64,000 nucleotides of DNA, taken from the NCBI RefSeq assembly GCF_008831285.2, contig NC_045144.1, positions 8,159,886 to 8,223,885 of the forward strand, in the 5' to 3' direction. Shown here in pieces: positions 3,532-60,668 of this stretch (positions are counted from its first letter, which is position 1; the number at the start of each line of letters is the position of its first letter). Both the position numbers and the translations under genes were made by a program. The DNA is from Nymphaea colorata (Eukaryota; Streptophyta; Magnoliopsida; Nymphaeales; Nymphaeaceae). The notes below the pieces were generated by a model. That model was not told where the DNA came from. It made no database searches and saw only the letters and a program-made list of their open reading frames with translations.

Positions 3532-6500
3532 TACCAGGATATGTAAAGTCAGTGTGTTAGTAGAATTTATAGTTAGGTTTAGGCTGTAAATAGTAATCAG
3601 AATAATTTACTTCCTTGGATCTGAAATTTGTTAGACTCCAGCTACATTCTGGTTACTTCCTCAGATCCTAGTTAGGTCATAAGATATAAATATAGTTAAA
3701 GATAACATAATTTAGTATTTAATAATTACGTCAATTTAATTTTAACTCAGTCTTAACATGTTTGTTTAGGAAATTAACTTACTTAGTCGTGCTATCTTGT
3801 TTGCTTTGCTGTAATTCAGTGATAACATCCATTGTTAGTTAGCCTGTAGATGTAGGCAATATAGATTAGTTATAGGAGCAAGTAGCTAGGTGTTTTTCTT
3901 TATTGATATTATTCCTTGCGTTTATTAATTCTTCTTCTAAATTGCTTCAGTGTCAATTTAATTTTTGTTCTCATTAATTTCATGTTGACTGTTACTTGTA
4001 TTGGAATTAATTTAGTTAGAACTAGAACATGAATAATCTATGTCCCTCAGGAAGTGGCATAGATAGGGTAGCTAGTTGAATTGGCTGGTTGGTGAGAGTT
4101 TGGTCGTCAGTTCTGTAGGTGTCTTGTTTTCCACACATGTCTCGAAGCAGCTCTGGACCCAGGAGCGAGAGAAAGTGAGGAGAGGCTTCAGCCTCTTTAG
4201 GGTATCTAAGAAAATAGAGGATTCTAAAGTTCCTCGATCTTGCATTCTCAAGATCTTGAGCATTGTTTGCCTTATTCTTAAGATCTTATGGGATTCAGGG
4301 CTAAGATAAAGCTTCTTTTGATTCTTTCAATTTACAAAATCCCTTTCTTTCTCTCTCCAGTATAGTTGGTCAACTGAGGGTACATAAAGTGGTAGCCTAT
4401 GTTCAATTGTGTGTGCCAAAGTCCACAAGCTTTGAATTTCAACAATTTTGACTCTTAAGTTTGCTTTTCAAGGGTCCACCTATTCTCATAATCTTGAATG
4501 TAGACCAAATATTTTTTTAATTTTGGCTATATAAGCCACAACAGCGGTCAAATAAGGGCCTACCTTCACCATTTTCATGCTAACCTCTAACTGAAAATAC
4601 AATTCATGATGAAGAAATCAATAGGGATTTGTTCCTTTTTTTTACAAACTGTAAAATGGTATTTCGCAAAAGTGAAAAAGAGATACAAGTATTAAGAAGA
4701 AACCAATAAACTTATAGACCTTTATTAGTTTGGGATATTTCACGTTCAATATCCACTTAAAACCTTTTAATAGTTTTAACAAGAAGTTGCGGGGTTAAGG
4801 TAGAGGGGGGCACAAAAAGGCCAGACTTAGGCAGGTCAGAAGCCCTTGTTGGCAGCCCATACTCCGACCCTCTTAGGCATCGGTCGAGCCGGCCTAATGG
4901 TTAAATTCACAGACACCCCAACTTAATCCCATTTAGGGCCAAAACCCCATGGTCAGGGCAGAGCTAGAAATTTTTCATGAGAGGGACAGAATTAAAGTTT
5001 TTTAATTTTCACTAGAACCGAAATATCAATTTTTAAAAATTTTATATAGAACAAGTGAAATTTTCTAAAATTTACATGTAAATTTTTAAAAAATTTGAAG
5101 TGAGGACAGGGTCGATGCCCGTGGTCAGCCAGAATATCCCTCTCCTCATCCGCCGGAGTTCTCGGCACCACACGCACACACTCACACAGACAAAGAGAGA
5201 GAGAGAGATTGAAAAAAAATTAAAATAAAAAAGTGTTGTCAAAGCAGCCTCTATTGAGCAGTATCAATGCTCCCTTGGGTTCCAATCATTTGAGAAAAAG
5301 GTACACATTTCCCTTTTTTTTTGGGGTTGGAAGAAGCCGACAAGGGCTGCTTAGAGAGAAAAGATGATTTTTGGATGTTCTCTTCTAGGTGAGCGAGAGG
5401 TTTATCCCTACTGCTTGGAGGAGTGAGACCCGAAGACCCCATGCCTAGGGGTGCACCTGTCTATAGGCCCCTAGCCCAACCAACTACTTTATGCTTCTTG
5501 AGGTAGATGTACTTTTAATTTTATTCACTTTTTAGGGTATTCCCATGTTTGGATTTGAATTCTGGATTCAAATATAGAATCAAATATGAAAGAAGAAAAG
5601 TTGGTACCATATCTAAATCTTTGGATATGAACTTAAATTTTCTATCCAAATCTGATTTTTAGATTTACAATCAAATACATAGTGTGGATATCTTGACTTT
5701 CACATTGATTTTTATCGCACTTTAATATATGAGATTAAAACATGCAACATGTTGAGGTTGTCAGAGACATTTTGTCTAAACGTCCCAAACACGCCTCAAA
5801 TTAAAGAAAGAAAGCAATGGTTTATGATTACAAGTCTTTTGAATTGATTTAGGATTTGGATGCAAAGGTAAGCTATCACATATCAAGAAAATAAGAAGCG
5901 TGAGATTCGTATTTGGGTTTATAACCAGAATGTGATCTCTTAAAGGAAAATTTCCTAAACATTTTTCTTTTGAATTACCCAACAGAAAAGGCTTGTGTGT
6001 TCTAGAGTTTGAATTTCTTTGTCATTGTTAGGTCGAAGGATCACCTCAGCTGCAACATTATGCACCAACAATTATTTGATCAAGCTACAGACCAACTATC
6101 CTCTTAATGAACAATTTCCCTAATTAATCTTTTTTTTTTTTGTCTTTAGTCAAAGAATGAAAGAATGCCCTAGCTAAAATAATGAACCACTTTGAGCTTT
6201 TGTCCAAATAGATTTATAAAATTTGGTTGACTACTCAATTAAAAAACAAAAACATAAATTTATTGTTCCACATGCCCTCTTCATGGGAACTTGGTAAATA
6301 TCCCATTCCAAAAATAGAAAGTTCGAAACAATTGGGAATTTGTCGGAGATTGGATGCAATTACTAATTCATGATCTGGCATGTCCAGAATGAAAACTTCA
6401 TTTTGTTTCTATGAGAATTTTTGTGAATGTGTTTCATGTGCTTCCCTTCAATGAAAGTTTTATTTTTCCAAAATGTATCTTAATTTTTAGCCTAATTGTT

Positions 6501-36510: not shown

Positions 36511-39500
36511 GTTAAGAGTAGAACATAATGGCTATAACCCTTGGTAACTCATATTAACATAACTAGACCATATTAAAAAAATTAAAACTGCCACACAAAT
36601 GTAATACTTAATTTTTTAAACCCTTTTATGCATTATTGTGCATTATTATAGCATCAATTTAAAACTCCTTGCATGTTCATCCATTTACATCATATTTTAA
36701 TAATAAAGCTCTCTTCCTACTCTACTCTCAATGAATTAGATCTAGGTGAGATGTCTACTTTACTTATCATTGATTTTGGCCTAGCAAGATTGCATATCAA
36801 GTAACAACCCATTAATCTTGCAACAGGTAATTGAGATGATTTCATTGCTTACCAGTGCAGCTATTCTGTTCGACCATAATATCGTTTCCTTATTTCTTGA
36901 CATGTGTATGGCAGCCATTTTAGTACAATGGCCTAAACTTATGGGGATCCTTTGCAACAAATTTATTTTCCATCAACCTGACCAATTGTCGAGTATTTTA
37001 TTAGAATTACCAATAATTAAAATACCAATAAGATAAATCAACATGTAAGTAAAAGGTAAACTGGTTCTTTAAGACGGTTAAAGAGGGATCAAATATTTAA
37101 CTCTATAAAACCAAAATAGGTTAGGGTATTGCCCTGCTCTTGAAATCAACTCTGGTAGTTTATATAAGGTTATATGGAGACTTTTCAGTTTGCAAACATA
37201 TTTGAGAAATAAGGGTCCTCAAAATCTACCTTTTGGATCCAAAAAGAAAAGACATATACGTATATTTTGGGAATGTATTATCTTGGACATTGGGTAGCCA
37301 CATTTTTTGCATGAGAGAATCTGTTGCTAATCAAAATATGCTATAAAGCCAACGAATTGCCTTATCTATTGATGATTAATAGTGACAATAGAGTTGGAGC
37401 ATTGGAAAAACTACGCAACAAAGTAATGGTTTGTCTGTCATTGCCTTTTGAACAGGGTAAAATCTCTTAAATACCAGTCTTCTTCTTTCAAAAATATGAG
37501 AAAGCTTTGATATTTACGAGCCCATTTTCATGCTTCAATTTAAACTTTTAAACTGGTATTAACTATTTCAGGTTTTGAAGCATTAATAAAATTCTTTCAA
37601 ACTTAAAAATCAAATAAAAGTATGACAAAACAAAAGAAAAAATGAACGGAAGGCTTAATTTGACATGTCAATGATGGCATGCCTACATTTTGTGAATTTA
37701 TGTTCTGATGCCTAGTTAAGACATAGATTGTGAAAACTGCACCCTTAAATCTTACCTCAAATGTGTTTGCCACAATAAAGTCGGACTATTTCTAGAAAAT
37801 ATTAAATTAGTTGATGAGATGCTGCATGTTTGTCTAAATACATCAAACTTTAAGTTTTTTTTTTTTTTAAGTTTCTTCAAATTCTAAGCGCACATCTTTC
37901 AAAAGTTATAATTAAATCTTAGGCATGTTTATAGGCGGTTTTTACAATGTTAGACACACATGCTTATGAAAATCTTTTACAATTTAAGTGTTGTATTGAA
38001 ACATTTCATCAAATCACAAACATGTTTTTTAAAGTTTTTTTATAAGTTTAGTATTCATTTGAAATCAATTATAAAATCACTAGCAAGGTCGGTACTTTAT
38101 GTGGGCTTATTTGGGATTTCAAGTAAATAAATGGATATCTTCAAAAATACATCTTAATTATATATATGCTATTCAAGGCATTTGCATAGATGGATTTATG
38201 TGGTATTTTAACTGGATTTTCGTCCAATTTGAAGAATTAATTTCATGCACAAACCTTTAACTTAAAAGACGAGTATGTGCCTAAATCAAATTCCAATCAT
38301 GGATCTTAGTTTTGCTGTTTGATTAGCTCCAGATCTCACAACATCTAATTTGTGTTCCATGAATCTACTGTATTTTTTGGGGACAGATTTATAGGATAGT
38401 AACAATATGCTGCTATTTTCAAATGGCTTTAAATAGAGTTTTTGACTTGGGAGGTTGGTCAAAATTTATTGGAAAACCCTACTTTTTAATTGAAATTAAA
38501 ACACACTCAAACAACCCTGAAACTGCTAAAAAGAAGCTTGGCGTCAATGTGTAGTGGAAATATTGTAAACTTCCTTCACAAAAACACACATTGGATCTCG
38601 TTTTGGATGTAGATTCATGTCTTCATCTGATCCAAGGTCCACCATGTTCAATTTGGAGTGGATCAGTATCAAAATTCTCTTGCAAAACATATTCAGATCA
38701 CAAAGACATGCTGCACGATTCACTTATCTGAAGTCCGATTTTTGTGAAGCTTGGACCAATCATCTTGACGCTTAAAACAACTTAATGATGGGTTTTTTAA
38801 ACCAAAATTATAGATGAATGCATGTATCTAGAGAGGTTTACATTGTGATGCATTTTATGCAACATCCATTACTCCAAAAAATTCATAACTTGCAAGTTAA
38901 CCTCGATATGGCAAAGTCACAAAAATGTAAAATCACCATCAAAATAAGCTGATCTAAGATTGCGTTTTCAAGTTCTTTTCCTATGGAGATTGGATTATAA
39001 AATTAAAATTTTGAGAAAAACGGTGGAAATCACATTTTTGGGCAGTTAATGGAAATCGAGGATCGAGATCAGGTGGGGAATTAAAAACTAAGCTTTCATC
39101 GTTTCGTCTGTTCCAAATTTCTACCATACGGAAGGCAAGTGAAACGATGAAAAATTCCCAATTGTTTACTCTTTCTCCTTTTCTCTCTCTCTCTCTCTCT
39201 TTAAACTGTAGACTTCGGCACATCAATTTAACTTTTGGAAGTACAGATGAGTTTCGAGAAGATAAATTCATGCTTCTCAAGTTCTACAAATTATAAAATC
39301 TTGACCAAGCATCCTAAAGAACTGATGTAAAATCCTTTTTAGCTTCAACGAAATAAAAGCCCCGAAGGGTTCAAGGATGCATTACAACGTTTTCAACAAA
39401 GTGAAGACCATACGGCCTCCGTCCATGTCATCCGAACTCCAACCCAAATCCGACCACCATACTCTGCGACTGATTAAACCTACCAAGATTCTGATTTTTG

Positions 39501-45266: not shown

Positions 45267-46207
45267 TCACTTGCAGGGATAGGTGCAGAAGCAAGTGGTG
45301 GCGTTCAGACAATCGCCGACGCCACTATGCGCCTGTATACAAGAGTTCTGGCAGTCGCCCTCCGTGCAGTCCTGGCCCGTGACCGGAAGGAAATCGACGC
45401 ACGTATCCAGCGGCAGCTTCCTGCTGCCGGCCGCCCACTGTTCTCCCCCTGCACCACCGATTACTTGGATCGTAAATCACTTAGATCGCAAATTATTTAG
45501 ATCGAATGACTTGAAAGTAAAAGTTCATCGTCAAGCCGTATATTTAGCATTTTGCAGATCTAAAACAAGACAAAAAAGGAGATACAATGATTTTTAAGAG
45601 TATGTCTGAACAATAGTAATAAGTTGTTCATTTCTCATGAATCTAAGATTGAGATAAATTCATGAACTATAGTAACATGGTGTCCTATGAATCTACATGG
45701 GTCTTTGGGGCAAATTCACAGGGCTCTTAACAATTTGTTATTATTACAAAACATACTTAAATGTCTTTTCACTTCTCAAAATCCACCAACTTCTAGATAA
45801 AGAGATTAATGGTTGTGATTAAAGAGAGAAAAATTCTGACAAAAAAATAAAGAAGAGAATTTTGGTGATCAATTTTAAACTTGAGTTGATGGGTATACCA
45901 CTCTCCACCCAAGTCTTGATTAGCTATCAATTTAAACATGAAAGTTGGCAATCAATTTAAGTGAAAGATCAACAAAAGAAGTGAAATGCATGTCGTGATA
46001 AAATGACTATAAAGGGAGAGAAAATTGGCGATCAGTTTAAACTTGAAAAGAAAAACAACTAACAAGAAGGAAAAGATCGTTTTCTTGGCTGCCAACTTGA
46101 AATAAGCAGGTGATCGAAGCAAATGAGATTAGAGCAGAGGGTAGTTCACCATGAAAAGAGAAAGCCACCAAGAGCCCCAAGACTAACAGTGGAAGAAAGC
46201 CCTTCAT
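45267..46207 (-). CDS. Secreted defensin-like cysteine-rich peptide
   Basis: Two minus-strand exons, 46150-46207 and 45267-45448, join in frame (58 + 182 bp, 79 aa) by GT-AG sites; Gly20 is split by the 701-bp intron. Exon 1 encodes a signal peptide, MKGFLPLLVLGLLVAFSFH. Exon 2 encodes a mature peptide with eight cysteines at 36, 47, 52, 56, 66, 72, 74 and 78: C-x10-C-x4-C-x3-C-x9-C-x5-C-x-C-x3-C. The CxxxC (52-56) and CxC (72-74) pair fits the cysteine-stabilised alpha-beta fold, and GDC (64-66) begins a gamma-core-like motif. A signal-peptide exon followed by a cysteine exon is the usual DEFL layout. Such peptides act outside the cell in defence or in reproductive signalling; which applies is unknown. 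The frame is intact. Its promoter is copied repeatedly in this window. Confidence 0.82.
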
Positions 46208-46520
46208 TTTTCTGATTCCACACAAGGAGTGCCTTACAGGAGCGCTGTATTTATAGCCTCCTCCTCCACTCTTCCTATTCATTCATATTTCCTTTGACAA
46301 TAAATAAAAAAGGCATATACATATACTTTGGGAATGTTATCTTCGAGATTGTGAAACTAATTTTCTGCCTGTTTTGTAAAGGAATTTGTTGCTCATCAAG
46401 ATCTTATGAATCCAACTAATTGCGTTATCTATCGAGAGTCAATAGAGGCAATAGTTGTTGGAGAATTGAAAATGTTCAAGCTATTCAACAACCTGTAGCG
46501 GCGTATCTGTCGTTATTGCC
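46208..46520 (-). promoter_or_regulatory. Promoter segment of the defensin-like gene
   Basis: About 300 bp upstream of the ATG. This segment is the reference for related copies at 37.14-37.46 kb and, within the array, at about 53.01-53.34, 54.94-55.27, 56.82-57.14, 58.76-58.92 (truncated) and 59.96-60.30 kb. Shared blocks include GTATTTATAGCCTCC, AATTGC(C/G)TTATCTAT and GGAGGCAATAG. Repeated conservation of TATA and flanks is the basis for calling it a promoter; activity is untested. Confidence 0.6.
46248..46255 (-). promoter_or_regulatory. TATA box of the defensin-like gene
   Basis: The minus strand reads GGCTATAAATACAG, a strong TATA box, 41-48 bp upstream of the ATG at 46207, which implies a very short leader. 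The same TATA context recurs in the array units near 53.06, 54.99, 56.87 (mutated) and 58.81 kb. Confidence 0.7.
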
Positions 46521-47725
46521 TTCTCAGCAGTACGTGTAAAATCGATCTAACTATTCAATGCTAAAAAGTGAGGACCCTCGTTAATTGTTCGACCTTTTAC
46601 AGCGTCTAATCATTAACTAAATCATATATAGGAAAAGATTCGAATCAACAAATCGTATCCAGATCTGATCAAATGGACTTAGATCATTAAATCCTCAAAA
46701 AAAGAAAAAATAATAATAACCACCCATCATATTATTTTAGGAACATACCCATTAAAAAAATATCTAAAACCAAGATTCATGACCGAATAAAATTATGTTA
46801 TTATTGAGTGGCAGGGAACCCTTCTTTCTCTCTTCTCTTGGGGTTTAGAGCAGCACTTTAAGTCTTCTATGGTCTTATGATATACTCTTCAGCTCCAATG
46901 TCTCACATGATCCGTTTGTAGTTCAGAAAAATAACACTCATGAGAATCAAACTCAAAACACATCGACAACATATAACACTACAATACCATCATGTGTTTG
47001 TGCTCATGATAAAATATGTGTCAATGCTCATTGGGGAAGATTATGTTATTTGTGCGTTATACAATATTGATTAAAGCATGTGAACATGGACCATCATGAA
47101 TGAGCATATATATATGTATAGGCCTCATATCCAAAATTTAACATCCGTCTATCTTGTGCCACCCTGGGTTAAAGAGAGATCAAAGAGAAAAAGAAAAACA
47201 AAGAAAAGAAAAACTCACTCCCTTTTTTTGTTTCCTTTTATGAATGATCTCTATTCCACTTGGGGATGTAAATGGTAAAAATTCATGTTGGGTCGAGCGT
47301 TCACCAAATTCAACTTACTACTAAATTATGTAATTAAATCACAGATTCACACTCAGATCCAAACCTGCATTTCAATCCGATTAGCATAAGATCGTGCAAG
47401 AGTTATAGTAATTTAGTTATCATATATCAAACTTGGATGTGGGATTCAATTAGGAAGTTGCTGCACGAGTGAAGGTGCTCTCCCTTCCTCTCATCCCCAT
47501 ATGGTCTATGGCTGCTTTGGTACCTCGAGGTAGATCTCCTTTCTTTTGCAGTATAGATGGTTGACCCCATGGAAGATCGAAACGGAGGCTGGCCGCCTAC
47601 CAGCCCCACCCCAGCTGTTCCACCAAACCCCTTGGGGATTCTTGATTGTTGACTTTCATTATTTTTGTTTGTAAGTTGTGATGAGTTCCCATTTTGTCAG
47701 GTGCCTCACCATTTATTGTATATTG
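46521..47725. other. Intergenic AT-rich region
   Basis: No gene is seen. A possible decayed member of the TAGGGATGTC-type element family begins near 47.27 kb (GGGGATGTAAATGG), but its other end is not visible. Confidence 0.5.
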
Positions 47726-48012
47726 AGGGGTGGGCATCGGGCCGGGCAGCCCGGCCTGGGCCCGGCCCGATAGCCTGGGTTTCGGCCCGGGCCCGGCCCG
47801 ACCCGTTTAAAAATAAAAAACATTTTTTAATAATAAAATAATGTTTTTAAACATAAAATATATTTATTAATAATAAATATATATTATTAAAACAAAAAAA
47901 TTAATATATATATATATATATATTAAACTTAAATGAATTGAACCGGGCTGGGCCGGGCCGGGCTGACCCGGGCAGGCCTATCAGGCCCAGGCCCGGCCCG
48001 ACGCCCACCCTT
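47726..48012. mobile_element. hAT-type MITE with GC-rich ends (copy 1)
   Basis: A 287-bp element. Its ends are inverted: AGGGGTGGGCATCGGGCCGG on the left and AAGGGTGGGCGTCGGGCCGG as the complement of the right. The flanks GTATATTG and ATATATTG match at 7 of 8 bases and may be a target duplication. The ends are strongly GC-rich with extra GGCCCGGG blocks. The centre is almost pure A/T and shares AATATATTTATTAATAATAA with the copy at 62.2 kb. Non-autonomous, no coding capacity. Confidence 0.75.
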
Positions 48013-49841
48013 ATATATTGTTATTCAGCCTTGGAAAGTTCTCAATACAAGTCAACCCTTAGTTTAAACCATTATGACAGAAAAACACAAAAAAATGTGA
48101 TAAATTAAATAACCATTTAAAACTAAAAAAAACACATTTTTTCGAAAAAAATTTTAAACAAGAAAAAACACATTTAATGTGTCTTTTTGAATTTTTTTCA
48201 GTTTTTTTATTTTTTAATGTCAAACAGTTTTCTTTGTTTATTTTTTATTTGTTGTAAGTCTACTTATCTTTTGATGTTTGTATTATTAGTTTCTCACTTA
48301 TTTTATTTTTTTTTTAAATTTTAAAAACTTACCATATTTTTCCAGTGTTTTTTTCAAACTTGCCGTATTATACGTGAGAAAAATCTCACCGTTTAAAACT
48401 CCGAGACGTTATTTGTGACTACACTTTAATCTATCTTCACTACAGCAACTTGAGATCATACTTACCTCAATATAATGCATAGACAAGGTATTCAATGCAT
48501 AAAATCAATATCAAAACGATTATTAATCAAAACATTTCATGCGACCGTATATGAATATATGCATATGCATGCTTACATCAATTAATTAATATCTTTTCAT
48601 GGTTTTTACCGATTGGCATGCCAACTATAATATACGAAACTATGTGGCCGGTGACTCACTTTTGGCACATACATTTTCACACAACATATTTCTCTAATAG
48701 CGATTAACATAATCTTCCATATACATTGGTTCTTACGACAACCAACACGTGAGTAGATGCATCTGAACACGTTTGATCTATTATTACATCCATATTTACA
48801 TCTTTCCTTTCTGCTTAAGCATGTTCGCATTCTTGCAATTATCATTTATTTTAGTACCAACAATTGAACTCATGAAATTTGATTGTATGAACCAAACCAA
48901 GTTGCAATTAAACCAACACACATGAAGAAGGTATTGAAAGGTAATTCCTCAAAATTATAATTTTTAAATGGGGAAAGTATGTCACAAATGCCCCTAGTAG
49001 AATTTCAATTAAATATGCAACACAAGATAACTTTTTAAACAAAAGAGAAAGGTGACTTGAGTGTTTGGGCTGTATTGCGTGCATTCCATAGTCACAGTGT
49101 GAAATACACTAACAAATAATTTCTCATCTTGTACAAAATGGGAAAGAAGCCTCCTTTTACAATTATTCTAAGAAATATATGGTGACATCAGAATATTCAA
49201 AACTATAATCTGTTTTACGAAGGCATCATCAATTATGCAGGTGCTTTTAAAGTTGCAATCTTCTTTCTTTAAATATTTGAACGACGAGGTAAAAGCCCAC
49301 TTTACATGTTAGGCGGCCAACACATTAAACCGAGGGCACATTAAGGGTATTTTAGTCTTTCTATAGGGGACCATAGTTGAAAGTATGAGCAAAAAAGCGG
49401 GGCAGTTTTGATATTGTCTTGTAAGAGAGGAATAAAAACCACTCTTCCCTCCATTTTTCCTCATTTCCCTTTTATTATTCTCTCTCATCTCTCAGGCCGA
49501 CGGTTTCTCAGTCCATTTTGGCCATCTCCGGCCTCTGGTTGTTCCGATGGCCTCCGACCACCCACCGGCAACTGCATATATAGTCCCAACTCAAGATGAG
49601 TTTTTCTTTTCCCTTCTATCTTCTATTTTTAGTGTTGGAATCCGGCAATTGTAGTGTCCATTTTTAGGTATGATGAAATAACGAGTGGAAGATAAAAATT
49701 GGGGTATAAAATAATGACAGAGTTATGATATAAAGACATATTTTATGCACATGTAATGTTAAGGACTTAAAGTAAATATACACCATCACCTTACGCTTGT
49801 TATGTATAAGGAGCTGACATACAAAACTCATTCTCTGCTCT
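48013..49841. other. Intergenic AT-rich region
   Basis: No gene is supported. A frame starting ATGGCCTCCGACCACCCACC at 49.55 kb follows a CT-rich leader-like stretch. It could be a short 5' gene fragment, but it ends after about 35 codons without recognisable homology. Confidence 0.5.
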
Positions 49842-50066
49842 TTACTTTCGTTCTCCTTTCTCTTGGTGTTCATAGAGGTCAAGTATTTCATCGTTCACGC
49901 ACTTAACTAAAGCCAAATAGGAGATCATTTTGCAATCTTGGCACCCTGCTAGGTTCTCTTCTTCTTCTTCTTCTTCTTCTTCTTCTAAGCCGAAGTAAAA
50001 GCATACCGGAAGAAGACAGAGAACTATTAAAAACACGGACAAAAATGGAGAGGAGGAGGAGGCCAT
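49842..50066 (-). CDS. Possible small secreted acidic protein
   Basis: A single 74-codon frame with a true ATG (50066) and TAA. Residues 1-26 (MASSSSPFLSVFLIVLCLLP then VCFYFG) look like a signal peptide. Then come a run of ten Glu residues, GCQDCK, and a tail with one more Cys. I recognise no family. The Glu run is encoded by a (GAA)n microsatellite at about 49962-49986, which could maintain an open frame by chance. A (TTTA)n run just upstream could serve as an AT-rich promoter element. For: ATG, good signal-peptide shape, cysteines. Against: microsatellite, no homology, no splice partner found. Treat as a candidate only. Confidence 0.38.
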   Translation of the reverse strand: MASSSSPFLSVFLIVLCLLPVCFYFGLEEEEEEEEEENLAGCQDCKMISYLALVKCVNDEILDLYEHQEKGERK

Positions 50067-50864
50067 GTGAGTCTAGCCGCAGGATCTTCTCCTCTCTTTT
50101 TATTTATTTATTTATTTATTTTGTAGCTGTGTAATAAGCAGAGCCACATTTGGTCCCGAAGTTTGGCATAAATTGACAACGTATGATTCATGCGCATAAT
50201 AGTCTAGCACGCCAAGCAATGTAGGTAGTTATAACGTGCAATATGCAAGAGCAGATATCACACATTTCCATGTCATGCTTATAAGAATATAAGTTTCCCA
50301 CTAATATAGATTCTACTATTAGTCATTTGCATATGCTTACACATGTATTCTAAAAAAAAAAAAAAGAATCAGATTTTTGGCTTTATGGTGTTCTTCTAAT
50401 CGCTTCATGATCTTCTAACATCAAATGATCAAAGAGCACAAAAATAATATAGTTGTTCCGATAAAGCAGAACTACAGTGGTTATATCCAGCACCACTATA
50501 GATCGCAGGCTAATTTAAACCCATTTTTTTTAAGAAAAATTAAAAAATAAAATGTGCAACGGGAAGGCCGTTACCTCCACCTATTATTAATTTTTAATGT
50601 CATAGGAGCACTTCATTTTTTTATAACTGGTAAAACATTGTAAACTTAAAAAATGATTAACTTGTAAAAAAAATATTGTTAAGTTCATATCCCATATGGT
50701 TAGACCAATCCATTTTGAGGAGTTGTTTTTTTTTTGGTCCCTAACCTTGTGGCTTGAGGTCTATGTTATATATATCCGGACTCATTGGCGCTTCAAAATT
50801 TACCTATTTAATTTTTGGTAGAGAAAGTGGAGAGAAGAAGTTGGTCTGAAACTTTCTCATACAA

Positions 50865-51060
50865 TTAGAAAGGGAGAGAGTAACGATCAATTTAGGCATG
50901 AAGAAAGAAAGAATACAAATGAAGACCGCTAACGTTTGCTAGCTTACCACAAAATGTCACCTTAGAATGACGGATGAAGCAAGTAATTAATTAAGGGTAG
51001 AGGGTGGTTTACCATAGAAGGCCAAAGCCATCAAAACACCAAAAATAAAAGTGGAAGACC
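50865..51060 (-). pseudogene. Relic of defensin-like exon 1 and intron start
   Basis: 51001-51060 aligns with 46138-46197 of the intact defensin-like gene (AGGGTGGTTTACCAT against AGGGTAGTTCACCAT, then AAAGCCATCAA against AAAGCCACCAA, AGTGGAAGA in both). On the minus strand this is most of the signal-peptide exon plus the donor GT. The intron side stays similar to about 50.87 kb (AAAGGGAGAGA, CGATCA.TTTA). The start codon is missing: at 51060 the homology stops and the first array arm begins in opposite orientation. Confidence 0.6.
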
Positions 51061-51251
51061 GCTAAGGTTTGCTACCTTCTCTTTTTCTCTCTCCCACCTA
51101 GGGCTTCTTTGATCCAGAGCGTTAGTTATCCATTTCTGATTTGGAGTTTTCGTTTCCCTACATCATCATTTCGTTTTGTTTGCAATTAGGGGATTTACAG
51201 TTTTAAGTTTCTGTGAAGGAGCTATCTGTCATTGTGTTTACTTGTTGTTTG

Positions 51252-51633
51252 TAGGGATGTCGGATTCGGATCGGATACATCTTTAACCATATCTGCTTTT
51301 TCGGATATTCATATATTTGGATTCGGATTCAGATTCGGATTCAAATAAAGCAAAGTCATATCCGAATCCGAATATGAAATCCGATTTTACAATCCGAATC
51401 CGAATCCGAATTTTGAACCGGATTTTGCCATTTTTCAAGTATTAGATAGAGGATATTTGTTTAAAAATGAATTCGATCCGAATCCGTATCCGATCGGATG
51501 TCATTTATTAAATCCGAATCCGATCCGATTTCTTAATCGGATATTAAATTTTTATTCATATCCAATTTTTTCGGATCGGATCGGTCGGAATCGGTCGGAT
51601 ATCCAATTCAAATCGGATATATTGACATCCCTA
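51252..51633. mobile_element. Complete hAT-type MITE with perfect 8-bp TSD
   Basis: A 382-bp element with perfect 10-bp terminal inverted repeats TAGGGATGTC...GACATCCCTA, flanked by GTTGTTTG on both sides (51244-51251 and 51634-51641). An 8-bp duplication is the hAT signature. It sits inside the unit 0 left arm. Sister units show the uninterrupted site (TTGTTGCTTG then TGGTTTAGGATTTC), confirming insertion. The interior repeats CCGAATCCGAAT/ATTCGGAT motifs. It has no coding capacity. Confidence 0.92.
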
Positions 51634-51701
51634 GTTGTTTGTGGTTTAGGATTTCTTTTTCTGTTTTCAGCCTTCCGGTTGGTCATTTGTTTGTCAGCCT
51701 A

Positions 51702-51925
51702 GGGGGGAGAGAAACTTATGTGCATAGGGTGCACCATGCAGAGTAAAGGTGAGAAGGACATTTTGATAATTTATTAAAAAGAAATGTCTTTGATAGTTTT
51801 TTTTTTTTACTTTTTTCCATTTTTCATTTTATCTTTAAAAAAAGTTTTATTTTTCAGTGTGAATTAAGGGTATTTAGTCATTAATTATACTAACGCACGA
51901 AAAATCGTGCACCTATAACCAGGTT
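51702..51925. repeat. Inverted copy of a 210-bp array block
   Basis: This block is the reverse complement of about 53585-53795, sharing AAGGACATTTTGATAATTTA, CTTTTTTCCAT and TTTTTCAGTGTGAA in order. It interrupts the left arm of unit 0 between CAGCCTAG and GCCCAAGGCATGC. GGTGCAC-like inverted motifs near both ends suggest a small mobile element, but no target duplication was confirmed. Confidence 0.6.
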
Positions 51926-52365
51926 CTGCCCAAGGCATGCTTGGATGGAAGCAAAAAAAAAGGTAAGCCACAAACATTATGAATATGATAGGTTATGCCA
52001 CCTCCTATACATAAGACTTTGTAGCAACCTTCTTGTCCATATCCCAAGTACTCTGAAAATACTAGCTTTCCTTCACCTACATTGGTGAATGGTAAAGTCG
52101 GCATGAGGAGCAGAATCATGTCTCCTCGGGGAAGCATTCCATGTCTTTGTCTTCTTGTCATTAAAACACTCACTGGTGCAGGTGAAGAAGAGGAAGTATT
52201 CTTCGACTATTTGGGATATTGATGAGAAGCTTCTTACAAATTCTTATGTATGGTGAAAATGAAGAAGAGGAAGTATTCTCCAACTATTTGGGATATTGAT
52301 GAGAAGCTTCTTACAAAGTCTTATGTAGGTGAGGTGGTCAGACCTATCTCATTTGTAGCCACTGT

Positions 52366-52530
52366 TAAGCCTGGGCATCGGGCCAGGGCTCACGCCAAAA
52401 AAAAAAAAAAAAACCAGGCGGGCCCGGGTGGGCCTGACTAAGACAGGTTCTTCCCGATAAAATTTTCTATTATTTTTATATATAATTATATAATTTATTA
52501 TAATTAATTGTATTTATATATTATTATGTG

Positions 52531-52573
<43 letters not shown>

Positions 52574-52708
52574 TTTTAACAAGTCTGGTCGGGCCTAGGC
52601 TTGGGTTTCGGGTGTGGGGCCAGGCCCCAGTTCGGGCTCAGGTTTCTGGTGTCTGGCCACGCCCACCCTCAGGTTTCGGGAGTCTGGCCGGCCTGATGCC
52701 CAGGCCTA
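52366..52708. mobile_element. hAT-type MITE with GC-rich ends (copy 2)
   Basis: Ends TAAGCCTGGGCATCGGGCC and, as the complement of the right end, TAGGCCTGGGCATCAGGCC. The interior has a long (TA)n run (about 52529-52570). It splits the right arm of unit 0 where sister units are continuous. The flanks GCCACTGT and ACCATTGA could be a degraded 8-bp duplication (5 of 8). Confidence 0.72.
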
Positions 52709-53891
52709 ACCATTGAAGCTTATGTTTCTCCTTCCATTCATAGCACACCTTACGCTGTCCCAAAAAAAAAGCACAAACCCAAAAGCCAACAGGAAAACAT
52801 AAATGAAATCCAAAACCACAAGAAACAAGTCACCGCAATGATAAATTGTTTCTCCACAAGAAACTTAAAACTGTCAAACCCTAATGACAAGCAAGATAAA
52901 ATAACAATACAACTAAAGAGCAGAAAGGGATAACCAATGCCATGTATCCTAGAGACCCTAGGTGGGAGGGAAAAGAAGAAGAAGAAGGGAACCAAATAGA
53001 CCCTCGCAGTCTACCCATTCATGGTTTTTATTCCACAAATGGAGTGGTTTAGAGGTGCTATTTATAGCCTCCCATACTCATCATGTTCTTTCATATTTGT
53101 CTGAAAAAAGAAAAAAGTATAGTTATATATTTTGGATTGCATTTTCTATGAGATTGTGAATTTATATTATTTGCTCACTTTTGAAAAGAATTTAATGCAT
53201 ATCAAAATGGTAGAATTCAACTAATTGCCTTATCTATTACAAAGTTAATGGAGGCAAAAGCAGTGTTGGAAAAACTTGGCCACACTGGTCTTTAAGTAAT
53301 GGCATCTATTATTGCTTTCATTTACATTGTAAAATCTCTTCAACAGCTGCCTTCTTCATGTTAACTTTGCCATGTATGAGTCAATTTCCTTGTTTGAGTT
53401 TAACCCTTAATTTATGGTTCAAACCACGAATCTGTAGTTTTCATATGGTAATACAAATTTAAGATCCCAGTTGGGAAGTGTACAGTTTGTTTAAGGAGTG
53501 GATTTAATCTAACATAGGTGATATACATAGGTTTAGCAAACACCGTTATCTCAAAACCAAGGATTTCAAATCCTCGATGGGCACCATACTGGTGCATGAT
53601 TTTTCACACACAGTATGGTTAATGACTAAAATACTCTTAGTTCACACTGAAAAAGAGAACTTTTTGTAAAGACAAAATTGGAAATGGAAAAAAGTAAAAA
53701 GACTGTGGAGGCTATTTTTTTTATTAAATTATCAAAATGTCCTTTCCTCCTTTACTTCACACAGTGCGCCCGACACACATAACTTTCTCTTGGGAAGAAT
53801 CCATTGTTTTATGATTGGACGCCTATCGATCTGTTGCAAAATTATTGCGGAAGCAACACCGGCTAGCATGAACCAACCATTGCCTCAACCA

Positions 53892-53937
<46 letters not shown>

Positions 53938-54067
53938 GAGGAGGAGGAGGAGGAGCAGAAAGAGGAGGATGAGGATTTGGAAAAAAGAAAAGGTAGCCGA
54001 GCAATGACTAGTGCCATCGCGGCTGAGGGCCGAGAGAAAGCTGAGAGATATAAAGAGAGTGAGAGAG

Positions 54068-54878
54068 GGTGTCAGTTATCCTTTATTAATTCAGAGTTTT
54101 CCCTTCACTATATTGTTAGCTATACTTCCTTATCTCTTTGGTCTCACAGTTCTAGGGTTTTTGTGGAGAAGCGATTTATCATTGTGTTTATTTGTTGCTT
54201 GTTGTTTAGGATTTTTTTATTTCTGATGTCAGCTTTCAGGTTGATGCTTCATTTATCAACCCAGGGCCTGGTGTGGATAGAAGCAAAAAGGTGAGCCTTA
54301 GAGATTATGAACTTGATAGGTTTAGCCACGTCCTCTACATAAGAGTTTGTAGCAAGCATCTTGTCCATATCCCAAATAATATGGAAATACTTCCTCTTCA
54401 TCACCTACACTGGCGAGTCTTTGGGTGTTGCAGGAGGTGGATAATGGTGAAGTCAACCATGAGGAGCATAATCAAGTATCCTCGTGGAAGCCTTCCATGG
54501 CTTTGTCTTCTTGTCATTAAAACATTCACTAGTGTAGGTGAAGAAGAGGAAGTATTCTTTTGACTATTTGAGATATCAACGAGAAAGTTCTTACAAAGTC
54601 ATATTTAGATGAAGTGGTTGGACCTATCTTATTGGTAACTCCTGTGACTCATGTTTATGCTTCCATCCATAGCCCGCCTTAGGCTGCGAAATATAGCACA
54701 ATCCCAAAAGTCAGTAGAAAAAAATAAATAAAATCCAAAAATACAAGAGAAAAATAATCACAATGATAAATCAATTCTCCACAAAAAAACTTTAAACTGT
54801 CAAACCCAAATGACAAGCAAGACAAAATAACAATATAGCGAAAGGGACACTCCAAAGCAGAGATGGATAACCAATGCC
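54068..54878. repeat. Array unit 1 palindrome
   Basis: Left arm about 54068-54422, loop about 54423-54519, right arm about 54520-54878. Example of pairing: GAAATACTTCCTCTTCATCACCTACACTGG on the left against the complement of CTAGTGTAGGTGAAGAAGAGGAAGTATTCT on the right. A TATA-bearing promoter segment follows at about 54.94-55.27 kb on the minus strand. Confidence 0.8.
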
Positions 54879-55805
54879 ATGTATCAATGAAACCATAGGT
54901 GGAAGGGAACCAAACAAACCCTAGAAAATCTTCCCCTTCATGTTTTTTATTCCACAAATGGAGTGGTCTACAGGAGCCTTGTATTTATAGCCTCCAATAC
55001 TCATCATGTTCTTGTATAAATGTCTGAAAAAAAGAAAAAAATATAGTTATGTATTTTCGATTACGTCTTTTAGGAGATTGGGAAATTATATTTTTGCCCA
55101 CTTTTGAAAAGAATTTAATGCATATCAAAACTTGTTAAACATGAAACTAATTGCCTTATCTATTACAGAGTTAATGGAGGCAATAGCAGTGTTGGAAAAA
55201 CCTGACCCCACTGGTCTTAAGTAATAACATCTATTATTGCCTGTATTTATACTTTAAAATCTCTTCAACAACTGCATTCTTCATGTCAACTTTGCCATGT
55301 AGGAGTCAATTTCCATGTTTGACTTTAACCCTTAATATATGGCTCAAACCACAAATCTGCAGTCTTCAGATAGTAAAATAAATTTGAGATCCCAGTTGGG
55401 AACTGTTTGTTTAAGCAGTGGATCTAATCTAACATACATTTGAAAGCATTTGAAGTTGAATTTTAAGGTGATATCCATAGTCTTAGCAAACATCATATCT
55501 CAAAATCAAGGATTTTGAATCCTCGATGGGTACATGGCTATATGCTATACTGGTGCACAATTTTTTGTGTGCTAGTATGCTTAATGACTAAAATACTCTT
55601 AGTTCACACAGAAAAAAGAAAACTTTTTGTAAAGACAAAACTGGAAATAAAAAAAAGTAAAAAAGACTGTAGAGGACATTTCACGTAAGTTTCTCTCTTG
55701 GGGAATCCATAGTTTTGAGATTGGATGCCTTTTGATCTCTTGCGAAATTGTTGTGGGAAGCAACACTGGCTAGCAAGAACCAACCATTGCCTCAACCACA
55801 AAGAA

Positions 55806-55837
<32 letters not shown>

Positions 55838-55934
55838 GGATTAGGAAAAAAAGAAAAAGTAGAAGAGCCTTGACTAGTGCCATCCCGGTTGAGGCACGAG
55901 AGTAAGCTGAGAGAGATATAAAGAAAGTGAGATA

Positions 55935-56725
55935 GGGCATTAGTTATCCTTTTCTAATTCGTAGTTTCCCCTTCACTATATTATTATTTCGCCTTCCTTG
56001 TCTCTACGGTTTCACAATTCAAGGGTTTGTGTGGAGAAGTGATTTATCATTGTGTTTATTAGTTGCTTGTGGTTTAGGATTTCTTTTTCTATTGTCAACC
56101 TTCAGGTTGGTAAATTGTTTATCAGCCCAAGGCATGCTATGGACTGAAGCAACAAGGTGAGCCTCTAAGATTATGAACGTGATAGGTTTAGCCATCTCCT
56201 CTACATAAACCTTTGTAGCAACCATCACATCCATATCCCAAATAATCCTTCCTCTTCTCCACCTACACTGGCAAGTGTTTGGGTGTTGCAGGAGGTGGAG
56301 AATGGTGAAGTCAGCCATGAGGAGCATAATCATGTCTCCTCGTGGAAGCCTTCCATGTCTTTGTCTTCTTGTCATTAAAACATTCACTAGTGCAGGTGAA
56401 GAAGAGGAAGTATTCTTTGACGATTTGGGATATCAACGAGAAAGTTCTTACAAAGTCATATGTAGAGTATGTGGTCGAACCTATCTCATTGGTAACCGTT
56501 GTGACTCATGTTTCTACTTCCATCCATAACGCACCTTAGAATGCCAAATATAGCACAAACCCAAAAGCGAGTAGGAAAAAATAAATAAAATCCAATGCCA
56601 CAAGAAACAAGTTATCACAACGATAAATCTATTCTCCACAAAAAACCTAAAACTGTCAAACCCAAACGACAAGCAAGACAAAATAACAATATAGCAGAAG
56701 GGAGACTCCAAAGCAGAGAGGGATA
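55935..56725. repeat. Array unit 2 palindrome
   Basis: Left arm about 55935-56282, loop about 56283-56376, right arm about 56377-56725. The promoter segment at about 56.82-57.14 kb has a mutated TATA context (TATTTATTGCC instead of TATTTATAGCC). On the minus strand its ATG follows with MKG, as in the defensin-like gene, then diverges. Confidence 0.8.
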
Positions 56726-57733
56726 ACCAATGCCATGTATCAGAGAAACTCTAGGTGGGAGGGAGAAAAGGAAGAAGAAGGGAACGAAATAAACCCTAGT
56801 GATCTTCCCCTTCATTGTTTTTATTCCACAAATGGAGTGGTTTATTAGAGACTTGTATTTATTGCCTCCAATACTCGTCATGTTCTTCCATATTTGTCTG
56901 AAAGAAAGGAAAAATGCAGTTATATATTTTGGATTGCATCTTTTAGGATTTGGGAAATTATATTTTTTGCCCACTTTTGAAAAGAATTTAATGCATATCA
57001 AAACCTATTAAAAATGCAACTAATTGCCTTATCTATTACAAAGTTAATGGAGGCAACTGTAGTATTGGAAAAACCTGGCTACACTGGTCTTAAGTAATGG
57101 CATCTGTTATTGCCTTTATTTATACTTTAAAATATCTTCAATAACTGCCTTCTTCATGTGAACTGTGCCATGTAGGAGTAAATTTCCATGTTTGAGTTTA
57201 ACCCAAAATTTATGGTTCAAACCACAAATCTGCAGTTTTCATATGGTAATACAAATTTGAGATCCCAGTTGGGAAGTGTACTGGTTTTTTAAGCAGTGGA
57301 TTTAATCTAACATACATTTGAAAGCATTTGAAGCTGAGTTTTAAGGAGATATCCATAGTTTTAGCAAACATCATATCTCAAAACCAAGGATTTGATATCA
57401 TCGACGGGTACCTGGTTATATGCGCTATACTGTTGCACAATTTTTCTTGCACCAGTATGGTTAATGATTAAAATACTCTTAGTTCACACAAAAAAAGAAA
57501 ACTTTTTAGTAAAGACAAAATTGAAAATGGAAAAAAGTAAAAAGACTGTGGATGACTTTTTAATAAATTACCAAAATGTCATTCCTTTCTTTACTGCACA
57601 CGATGCAACAATGCATCTAAGTTTTTCTATAGGAGAATTTGTGGTTTTGAGATTGGACGGCTTTTGATCTCTTGCAAAATTGTTGTGGGACGCAACACTG
57701 GCTAGCAGGAACCAACCACTGCCTCAACCACAA

Positions 57734-57775
<42 letters not shown>

Positions 57776-57876
57776 GAGGATTAGGAAAAAAGAAAAGGGA
57801 GCCGAGCCTTGCATAGTGCCATCAGTATTGAGGCCGAGAGAAAGCTAAGTAAGAGAGATATAAAGAAAGTGAGAGA

Positions 57877-58682
57877 GTGCATTAGTTATCCTTTTCTAAT
57901 TCGGAGTTTCCCCTTCACTATATTGTTTTCTCGCCTTCCTTGTCTCCGTGGTTTTACAGTTCTAGGGTTTTTGTGGAGAAGCGATTTATCATTGTGTTTA
58001 TTAGTTGCTTGTGGTTTAGGATTTCTTTTTCTGTTGTCAACCTTCAAGTTGATGATTTGTTTATCAATCCAAGACATGCTATGGATAGAAGCAAAAAGGT
58101 GAGCCTTAGAGATTATGAACGTTTATAAGTTTAGCCAACTCCTCTACATAAGACTTTGTAGTAACCGTCACATCCATATCCTAAATAATCGAAAAATACT
58201 TCCTCTTCTTCACCTAGACTGGTGAGTGTTTGTGTGATACAGGAGGTGGAGATTAGTGAAGTCAGCCATGAGCATAATCATGTCTTCTTGTGGAAGTCTT
58301 CCATGTCTTTGTCTTCTTGTCATTAAAACATTCACTAGTGCAGGTGAAGAAGAGGAAGTATTCTTTGACTATTTGGCATATCAACGACAAAGTTCTTACA
58401 AAGTCAAATGTAGAGTATGTGGTCGAACCTATCACATTGGTAACCATTGTGACTCATGTTTCTACTTCCATCCATAGCACACCTTAGACTGCCAAATATA
58501 GCACAAACCCAAAAGCCAACAGGAAAAAATAAATAGAATCCAAAACCACAAGAAACAAGTAATCCCAATGATAAATTGCTTCTCCACAAAAAACCTAAAA
58601 CTGTCAAACCCAAACAACAAGCAAGACAAAATAACAATATAGCGAAAGGGAGACTCTAAAGTACAGAGGGATAACCAATGCC
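57877..58682. repeat. Array unit 3 palindrome
   Basis: Left arm about 57877-58231, loop about 58232-58326, right arm about 58327-58682. The following promoter segment is cut short at about 58.92 kb by a deletion joining directly to the next unit's GA-rich leader. Confidence 0.8.
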
Positions 58683-59077
58683 ATGCATAAGAGAAACCCA
58701 AGGTGGGAGTGGGAAAAGGAAGAAGAAGGGAACCAAATAAACCCTAGCAATCTTCCCCTTCACGGTTTTTATTCCACAAATGGAGTGGTTTATAGGAGCC
58801 TTGTATTTATAACCTCCAATACTCATCATGTTCTTGTATATTTGTCTGAAAAAAGGAAAAAAATATAGTTATATATTTTGGACTACATCTTTTAGGAGAT
58901 TGGGAAATTATATATTTTGCCCACTTTTTTGCCCAACCATTGCCTTAACCACAAAAAGATATATATAGAGAGAGAAGGAGGATTAGGAAAAAGGAAAAGG
59001 TAGCCGAGGCAGGACTAGTGCCATCTTGGTTAAGGCCTGAGAGAAAACTAAGAGGGATATAAAGAAAGTGAGAGAGG

Positions 59078-59875
59078 ACGTTAGTTATCCCTTTTTAATT
59101 CGGAGTTTCCCCTTCACTATATTGTTATCTTGTCTTCCTCGTCTCTATGGTTTCACAGTTCTAAGGTTTTTGTGGAGAAGCGATTTATCATTGTGTTTAT
59201 ATGTTGCTTGTGGTTTAGGGTTTCTTTTTCTATTGTCAGTCTTCTGGTTGGTGCTTTGTTCATCAACCCAAGGTATGCTATGGATGGAAGCAAAAAGATG
59301 AGCCTCAGAGATTATGAATGTGATAGGTATAGCCACGTCCTCTACATAAGACTTTGTTACAATCATCACATTCAAATCAAAATAATCCGAAAATACTACC
59401 TCTTATTCACTTACACTAGCGAGTGTTTGGGTGTTGTAGGAGGTGCAGAATGGTGAAGTCAGCCGTGAGGAGAATAATCATGTCTCCTCGTAGAAGCCTT
59501 CCAAGTCTTTGTCTTCTTGTCATTAAAACATTCACTAATGGCAGGTGAAGAAGAAGAAGATCTATTTGGGATATCAACAAGAAAGTTCATACAAAGTCAT
59601 ATGTAGACTAGGTGGTCGGACCTATCTCATTGGTAACTGTTGTGACTCATGTTTCTGCTTCCATCCATAACACACCTTAGGTTGCCAAATATAACACAAA
59701 CCCAAAAGCCAGCATGAAAAGAAAAAATAAAATCCAAACCACATGAAACAAGTAATCACAATGATAAATCGCTTCTCCACAAAAAACCTAAAACTATCAA
59801 ACCCAAACGACAAGCAAGACAAAATAACAATATAGCGAAAGGGAGACTCCAAAGCAGAGAGGAATAACTAATGCC
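59078..59875. repeat. Array unit 4 palindrome
   Basis: Left arm about 59078-59429, loop about 59430-59526, right arm about 59527-59875. A promoter segment follows at about 59.96-60.30 kb. The unit ends in the last CACTGCCTCGAATG block with an (AC)n(AG)n tract at about 60651-60700. Confidence 0.8.
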
Positions 59876-60668
59876 CATTTGTTAGAGAAACCTTAGGTGG
59901 GAGGGAGAAAAGGAAGAAGAAGAGAACCAAGTAAACCCTAGCAATCTTCCCCTTCATGTTTTTTATTCCACACATGGAGTGCTTTACAAGAGCCCTTTAC
60001 TTATAGCTCCAACACTCATCATCTTTTTACATATTTGTCTAAAATAAGGAAAAGTATATTTATGTAACTTAGGGTTGCATCTTTTAGGAGATTGGGAAAT
60101 TACATTTTTTGCTTGCTTTTGGAAAGAATCTAATGCAGATCAAAACTTGCCAAAAAATGCAAGTAATTACCTTATCTATTACACAATTCATGGAGGCAAT
60201 AGGAACGTTGGAAAAACTTGGCCACACTAGTCTTAAGTAATGGCATCTGTTATTGTCTTTATTTATACTTTAAAATATCATCAACAATTGCCTTCTTCAT
60301 GTCAACTTTGCCATGTAGGAGTCAATTTCCATGTTTGAGTTTAACCCTAAATTTATGGTTCAAACCACAAATCTGCGGTTTTCATATGGTAATACAAATT
60401 TGAGATCCTAGTTGGGAAGTGTACTGTTAGTTTAAGCTGTCGATTTCATGTAAGGCCCATTCAAAATCATTTGAAGCAGAATTTTAATGTGATATTCATA
60501 GTTTTAACAAACATCGGATGTCAAAACCAAGGGCTCCAGATCTTCGATGGGGGGAAATTCTTCGGTTTTGAGATTGGGGCCCCTTTGATCTCTTGCAAAA
60601 TTGTCAATGGAAGCACCACCAGCTAGCGGGAACCAGCCACTGCCTCGAATGCACACACACACACACAA

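Follow-up and report, generated by a model that had tools for sequence, protein, structure and literature searches.

Inverted duplication of gene sequence is an origin of MIRNA and small interfering RNA (siRNA) loci that was reportedly set out by Allen in 2004. An inverted gene fragment also serves as the siRNA source at the YUP siRNA locus of Mimulus, which has reportedly been shown experimentally. Here we describe a locus of Nymphaea colorata that, like YUP, is built of inverted gene fragments but, unlike YUP, is known from sequence alone. It lies on contig NC_045144.1 (C7), partly within a window of 64,000 nucleotides (C7:8159886-8223885, the whole stretch of DNA analyzed), and comprises eight units in two clusters, each with a promoter resembling that of a defensin-like (DEFL) gene and a palindrome derived from a CDKG-type protein kinase gene. 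We regard it as most likely, with a probability of roughly 0.52, that the array is an inverted-duplication hairpin locus that is, or once was, a source of at least some siRNAs. By its anatomy, it is a proto-MIRNA or hairpin RNA (hpRNA) locus, probably silenced or weakly active.

Several described systems share features with the array. Inverted-duplication MIRNA and siRNA loci resemble it in having arms from protein-coding genes, a long imperfect foldback, and leftover similarity to the founder (PMC1790633, PMC3237417). In Arabidopsis, 16 MIRNA loci are reported to bear marks of an inverted-duplication origin from gene sequences, and new large foldbacks near a functional promoter are said to yield, perhaps, mixed siRNAs at first (PMC1790633). 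The array is unlike such MIRNA loci in its eight promoter-hairpin units, its promoter from an unrelated gene, and its scrambled two-piece stem. Arabidopsis MIR163 likewise combines an inverted duplication of its target gene with a captured promoter; it took part of the founder gene's own promoter, whereas the array promoter comes from a DEFL gene (PMC5388894). The inverted repeats of ARR17 in Populus and OGI in persimmon are reported in a review to act on targets elsewhere via small RNAs (PMC7843427). Both ARR17 repeats and OGI/MeGI, as the review describes them, are similar to the array in that partial gene copies or a hairpin RNA have a target located elsewhere; they come with small RNAs and a sex phenotype, whereas the array offers its sequence and a candidate target, CDKG (PMC7843427). 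Judged by its layout, what differs from the known loci is the array form together with the promoter of an unrelated gene. A shallow look at the open-access literature yielded no description of such a locus.

Self-comparison of the window revealed five head-to-tail units (U1-U5) at 51.06-60.65 kb. Three further units (V1-V3) were located at about C7:8235217-8240264, 11 kb past the window end; coordinates past 64000 are given on an extended scale (ext x = C7:8159885+x). The tandem palindromes of the original prediction, with arms facing each other across a loop of about 95 bp, are real: the uninterrupted ones measure ~815 bp and have a central loop of ~94 bp. Six of the eight palindromes are uninterrupted (U2-U5, V2, V3), and these were used for folding on both strands, for the target and pairing tests, and for the context counts. 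U3 is 81-88% identical to the other four window units in pieces of 1.16-1.94 kb (76% over 355 bp for the interrupted left part of U1), and 66.7% identical to its own reverse complement across 55928-56742 (832 columns). In U4, the inner arms are 107 nt each with 94 nt between them. Copies are spaced 1.86-1.95 kb apart, with the exception of U4-U5 (1.19 kb); the left parts of U1 and U2 are 2.3 kb apart, U1 having insertions there. The features within the window are as follows, with palindrome segments named A, C', B, C, and A'.

45270..46207, minus strand: donor-type DEFL gene, exon 1 at 46207-46148 and exon 2 at 45449-45270 (placed by tblastn, borders by eye)
46200..46465, minus strand: DEFL start codon, 5' leader, TATA box, and proximal promoter, which recur beside the palindromes
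50999..51058, minus strand: remaining part of a DEFL exon 1, bordering U1 on the side away from its promoter (aligned to 46136-46196, 77% over 61 bp)
51061..52995, no strand: U1 palindrome (A, C', B, C duplicated, A') with three interrupting insertions, borders by eye
53015..53273, minus strand: U1 DEFL promoter copy, 72.9% to 46200-46465
54066..54908, no strand: U2 palindrome, A (54066-54329), C' (54325-54427), B (54423-54517), C (54510-54612), A' (54648-54908)
54934..55199, minus strand: U2 DEFL promoter copy, 70.1%
55928..56784, no strand: U3 palindrome, A (55934-56190), C' (56191-56285), B (about 56286-56375), C (56368-56466), A' (56471-56784)
56808..57056, minus strand: U3 DEFL promoter copy, 71.3%
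57876..58756, no strand: U4 palindrome, A (57876-58137), C' (58134-58237), B (58243-58323), C (58316-58414), A' (58419-58756)
58756..58817, minus strand: U4 DEFL start, leader, and TATA-like stretch only, 79% over 62 bp, with no promoter match further upstream
59075..59950, no strand: U5 palindrome, A (59075-59336), C' (59332-59433), B (59423-59523), C (59563-59615, shortened), A' (59611-59950)
59950..60202, minus strand: U5 DEFL promoter copy, 70.2%

To identify relatives of the arms, the plant's own genome (407.8 Mb) was searched with the left arm and with the right arm plus leader. All first-look candidates (11 and 8, respectively) were scored, the resulting match counts being lower bounds. 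Among the 23 matches listed for the left arm, 20 fell at the array locus, V1-V3 included; for the right arm plus leader, this was the case for 21 of the 23 listed. The remaining listed matches were C3:1573139-1573850 (two per search) and C2:6664142-6664207 (one, left arm only). On C3, the matches fall on the 5' end of an open stretch of 508 aa (L025, minus strand, ATG at 4579) that encodes a protein kinase domain (Pkinase, 8.4e-26). Since CDK11B (1.8e-64) was far ahead of the next solved relatives, CTD kinase alpha (2e-35) and CDK12 (3e-34), we named the gene CDKG-type, CDKG being the plant name for such a CDK11/PITSLRE-like kinase. C2 holds a paralogue of this gene (by eye), and BLAST matches to it were confined to segments C and C'.

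Alignment to the C3 gene gave the order A-C'-B-C-A' in 8/8 units. Segment A, the left arm, runs in sense from about -199 (U1, V1: -238) to +57 of CDKG; C' is antisense, from about +440 to +338; B, the loop, is sense, about +116 to +217; C is sense, about +333 to +440; and A' is antisense, from +57 outward to -227 to -271. This order implies a stem assembled from two parts of the kinase gene that do not adjoin. Sequence comparison (74-80% identity of the arms to CDKG) showed that the arms come from a CDKG kinase gene on another chromosome, of which they carry pieces of the 5' untranslated region (UTR) and early codons. Alignment of all units to the CDKG 5' end rules out DEFL-derived arms. The proposed birth of the array from a defensin-like locus accordingly holds for the leader and promoter and fails for the arms, and the suggested search of the genome for genes matching the arms, once run, led to the CDKG genes on C3 and C2.

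The DEFL gene consists of a signal-peptide exon (by eye) and a Cys-rich exon. Its joined exons match Pfam PF07333 (SLR1-BP), a pollen-coat defensin-like family, with E 1.3e-8; Gamma-thionin itself reached only E 0.16. Beside every palindrome, the minus strand carries sequence similar to the DEFL start codon, leader, and promoter (from 46200 on). The similarity spans 258-274 bp in seven units, with 70-73% identity in U1, U2, U3, and U5, and is confined to 62 bp in U4. A TATA-bearing, DEFL-like segment aimed into each palindrome had been predicted and was found, U4 keeping only the start-proximal part. The TATA-like element lies 48-49 nt from the start codon in U2, U3, U4, V2, and V3, compared with 48 nt in the DEFL gene itself. 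A TATA pattern scan detected none in U1, U5, and V1, where CTATAAATA, CTATAAGTA, and CAATAAATA were seen by eye. Further DEFL-like stretches occur outside the units. One at C7:8242418-8242707 (L022:8533-8822), resembling promoter and exon 1 (72% to 46029-46319), has for the most part no counterpart in the corresponding flank within the window; a DEFL-type promoter fragment at 37241-37485 (74% to 46302-46472) has no recognized gene beside it. Another small secreted peptide may be encoded on the minus strand at 49842-50072, where an open reading frame (ORF) begins like a signal peptide and contains an acidic run (MASSSSPFLSV...).

DEFL exon-1 sequence also borders the array on its other side: in addition to the stretch next to U1, ext 75230-75289 to the left of V1 matches 46136-46196 (80%). 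As exon-1 sequence thus lies on both sides, the palindrome was apparently inserted in DEFL exon 1. In both U1 and V1, the promoter side stops at DEFL reference base 63 and the far side restarts at 67, the exon border being approximate because the alignments are local. The simplest reading places the insertion of the palindrome in the first exon of a DEFL copy, directly behind ATGAAGGG. A palindrome holding captured gene pieces within a host exon might also be a Foldback or Pack-type transposon. We consider this the least probable of the explanations weighed here, as the matches listed include no copies outside the array locus, and a gap of 3 bp separates the two halves of DEFL sequence in the alignment. 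With listed matches only at the array and the CDKG genes, and no other related locus among them for either arm, a dispersed transposon was rejected as the source of the arms, and the possibility of an ordinary dispersed transposon, raised in the original prediction, was not borne out.

The simplest reading of the present arrangement is that the unit of promoter and palindrome was amplified after insertion, and that a block with its right flank was then duplicated. The block duplication is deduced from one inserted element common to the left arms of U1 and V1 and from the matching right flanks, 60.35-64.0 kb corresponding to ext 80.5-84.0 kb in six pieces of 80-97% identity. The element, of ~210 bp, is a dispersed one: it occurs in the array region at 53582-53791, 51708-51911 (inverted), 55573-55662, and 57434-57628, with a copy inside the left arm of both U1 and V1, and in at least 31 further places outside the array locus (best 40 of 770 candidates scored). 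An insertion of about 379 bp in the U1 left arm (51253-51631, ends GGATGTC/GACATCC by eye) is absent from V1 and is therefore probably younger than the block duplication. Two insertions with CATCGGGCC-type ends were seen by eye at 52381-52700 and about 47720-48030, the former splitting U1 between C and A' (by eye). In U1, segment C also carries a 77-bp tandem duplication (52183-52332).

The DEFL start in front of each palindrome raises the question of translation, that is, of a chimeric secreted-peptide gene in which the DEFL start is fused to the CDKG leader, or of a translated small ORF on the plus strand. Frames of 66 aa (U3) and 63 aa (V2) from the DEFL start and plus-strand ORFs of 69-78 aa in U3, U4, and V2 would fit such a gene. 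Across U1-U5 and V1-V3, however, the DEFL-start frames measure 3, 6, 66, 35, 29, 3, 63, and 23 aa, the U4 start codon is changed from ATG to GTG, the plus-strand ORFs vary between 26 and 78 aa over the eight units and end differently, and no Pfam family scored above cut-off for the two U3 frames tested. Owing to these differences from unit to unit, a shared peptide is very unlikely, and a shared coding function was rejected on the differing frames and the lack of a Pfam match.

Folding, as had been suggested, revealed strong hairpins in U3 and in all six uninterrupted palindromes of the eight. The minus-strand RNA of U3, the only unit for which a shuffle z-score was computed, forms one long stem (-343.5 kcal/mol vs. 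-202.7 ± 8.7 in 20 shuffles, z -16.2), and minimum free energies over the six palindromes and both strands range from -305 to -355 kcal/mol, the folds containing 228-285 long-range pairs. To assess targeting, 21-nt windows were compared with the C3 CDKG mRNA using a plant-style mismatch penalty. Per palindrome and strand, 11-68 windows paired at a penalty of 3 or less and 30-103 at 4 or less; in the shuffle control, 2/60 had one window at penalty <=4 and 58/60 had none. A 22-nt perfect match to CDKG at about -112..-91 is present in U2, U4, U5, V2, and V3 (of the six units examined). On the plus strand, V2 matches CDKG perfectly over 35 nt at about +362..+396, and V3 does so over 22 nt.

Transitions in the six palindromes were observed at 23/28 CG, 23/36 CHG, and 64/270 CHH sites, an excess over CHH of p 1.4e-9 for CG and 2.4e-6 for CHG (Fisher). 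Transversions displayed no CHG excess (7/36 vs. 45/270, p 0.64) and were somewhat higher at CG (8/28). When arm cells were counted against CDKG, transitions came to 0.34 (CG), 0.25 (CHG), and 0.18 (CHH), and transversions to 0.21, 0.09, and 0.11, respectively. The duplicated flank, for which one of six overlapping pieces was skipped, had no CHG excess (logOR -0.02), with raised CG transitions (0.147 vs. 0.093); its CHG difference from the palindromes had p 0.05 on pairwise counts and 0.01 against the eight-unit count. The CG/CHG footprint is that of a silenced-type repeat and is not in itself proof of siRNAs from the hairpin.

Several results weigh against reading the array as an siRNA source. 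First, CHG hypermutation does not single out the palindrome: elsewhere in the unit the excess is similar (difference p 0.53), save in the distal part (CHG 6/17 vs. CHH 28/101). Second, the TATA box is changed in several units (by eye). Third, left and right arms are 65-76% identical over all pairs (67-74% within the six uninterrupted units), a divergence that leaves no visible mutual correction between arms. Fourth, in a test free of structure choice, which excludes changes carried by more than 2/6 units, pair-keeping and pair-breaking transitions numbered 44 and 38 (p 0.58), and double changes were found at 2/307 pairs, 2 vs. 4.3 in shuffles. No selection for pairing was thus found in the unbiased test over the six palindromes. 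A present function is further opposed by the unlike reading frames of the units and by the arm divergence of ~30%. In the arm tree, the left arms group together (support 0.956), the right arms separate from left arms plus CDKG (0.998), and CDKG joins between the two. On the side of the hairpin reading stand the contrast between the CG/CHG-hypermutated array and its flank free of CHG excess, and the nominally higher likeness of segment C, 92.5% in the six uninterrupted units vs. 79-89% for other segments, in a unit alignment from which the U1 and V1 left arms were left out.

These results also bear on the idea of a mature MIRNA-type family, in which one 21-22-nt product from the stem at about -112 to -91 would regulate CDKG under selection. 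The recurrent 22-nt match there agrees with it, as does the best 21-nt window of both arms against CDKG, -111 to -91, with a permutation p of 0.035; this value is uncorrected for four window sizes, the other three of which gave p 0.10-0.40. Conservation of the stretch within the array is unremarkable (rank 42/232 on the left and 68/233 on the right). Tests based on alifold were positive, 81/190 changes keeping pairing vs. 69.2 expected (0/2000 simulations as high) and 63/179 vs. 53.9 expected on the plus strand (p 0.007). However, the structure was drawn from the same sequences; given this biased choice and the null results on sequence-paired sites and double changes, the alifold evidence for pairing upkeep was discarded. 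Watson-Crick sites also change less than mismatched ones (0.054 vs. 0.112; 0/5000 permutations as large), which we read as rate differences between sites, because mismatched sites have by definition changed before; there may be weak constraint on paired sites. An Rfam scan of 50.5-61.5 kb returned five matches at E<=1 (best 0.036) and none at or near its gathering score, so that a known miRNA family was rejected for this interval; two of the sub-threshold matches fall in inner stem or loop (MIR6426, 54390-54552; MIR6445, 56239-56419). Taken together, a mature MIRNA-type family is improbable.

Second in rank to the siRNA-source reading stands an inert silenced repeat, an outcome also named in the original prediction, i.e. 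a methylated, untranscribed fossil or one with low, scattered 24-nt siRNAs and no effect on CDKG. We deem this a plausible explanation, if the less likely of the two. The CG/CHG hypermutation and the lack of pairing selection point that way, and the DEFL-derived segments are 85-87% alike between units, as diverged as most of the unit. On the other hand, long perfect CDKG matches are still present, and five units retain the TATA-to-start distance of the DEFL gene.

For a hairpin locus yielding siRNAs, we propose the following account. Fragments of the CDKG 5' end form the palindrome A-C'-B-C-A', which, as the split DEFL homology indicates, sits in a DEFL exon 1 copy just after ATGAAGGG. With the palindrome in this position, DEFL promoter, TATA box, leader, and start codon would all lead directly into it. 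Promoter and palindrome together are present in eight units in two clusters. Firing of the DEFL promoter would produce a minus-strand transcript that folds as a long hairpin, and Dicer-like enzymes would cut it into mixed 21-24-nt siRNAs. Some of these may pair with CDKG mRNA in the 5' UTR and around codons 121-132, and siRNAs could direct methylation of the array, which would now be mostly silenced and decaying. In this sense, the array looks like a naturally built gene-silencing cassette in decay; strong present-day regulation of CDKG by it is possible.

A stronger version, in which the eight copies act as a natural RNA interference (RNAi) cassette silencing the unlinked CDKG wherever the DEFL promoter is on, possibly in reproductive cells, seems doubtful to us. 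The reproductive setting is suggested by the pollen-coat Pfam match of the DEFL gene and by the fertility role of Arabidopsis CDKG1, which is required for fertility at high temperature (PMC7683410).

A single locus here displays the fragment source, palindrome layout, exon insertion point, promoter takeover, amplification, and decay of a hairpin array. It suggests that insertion directly downstream of a small gene's start codon is one way for a new hairpin to acquire a promoter, and it provides a precise, testable prediction in the form of a single target, CDKG, with named sites. If the RNAi-cassette version were true, the array would be a trans-acting dosage regulator or fertility modifier.

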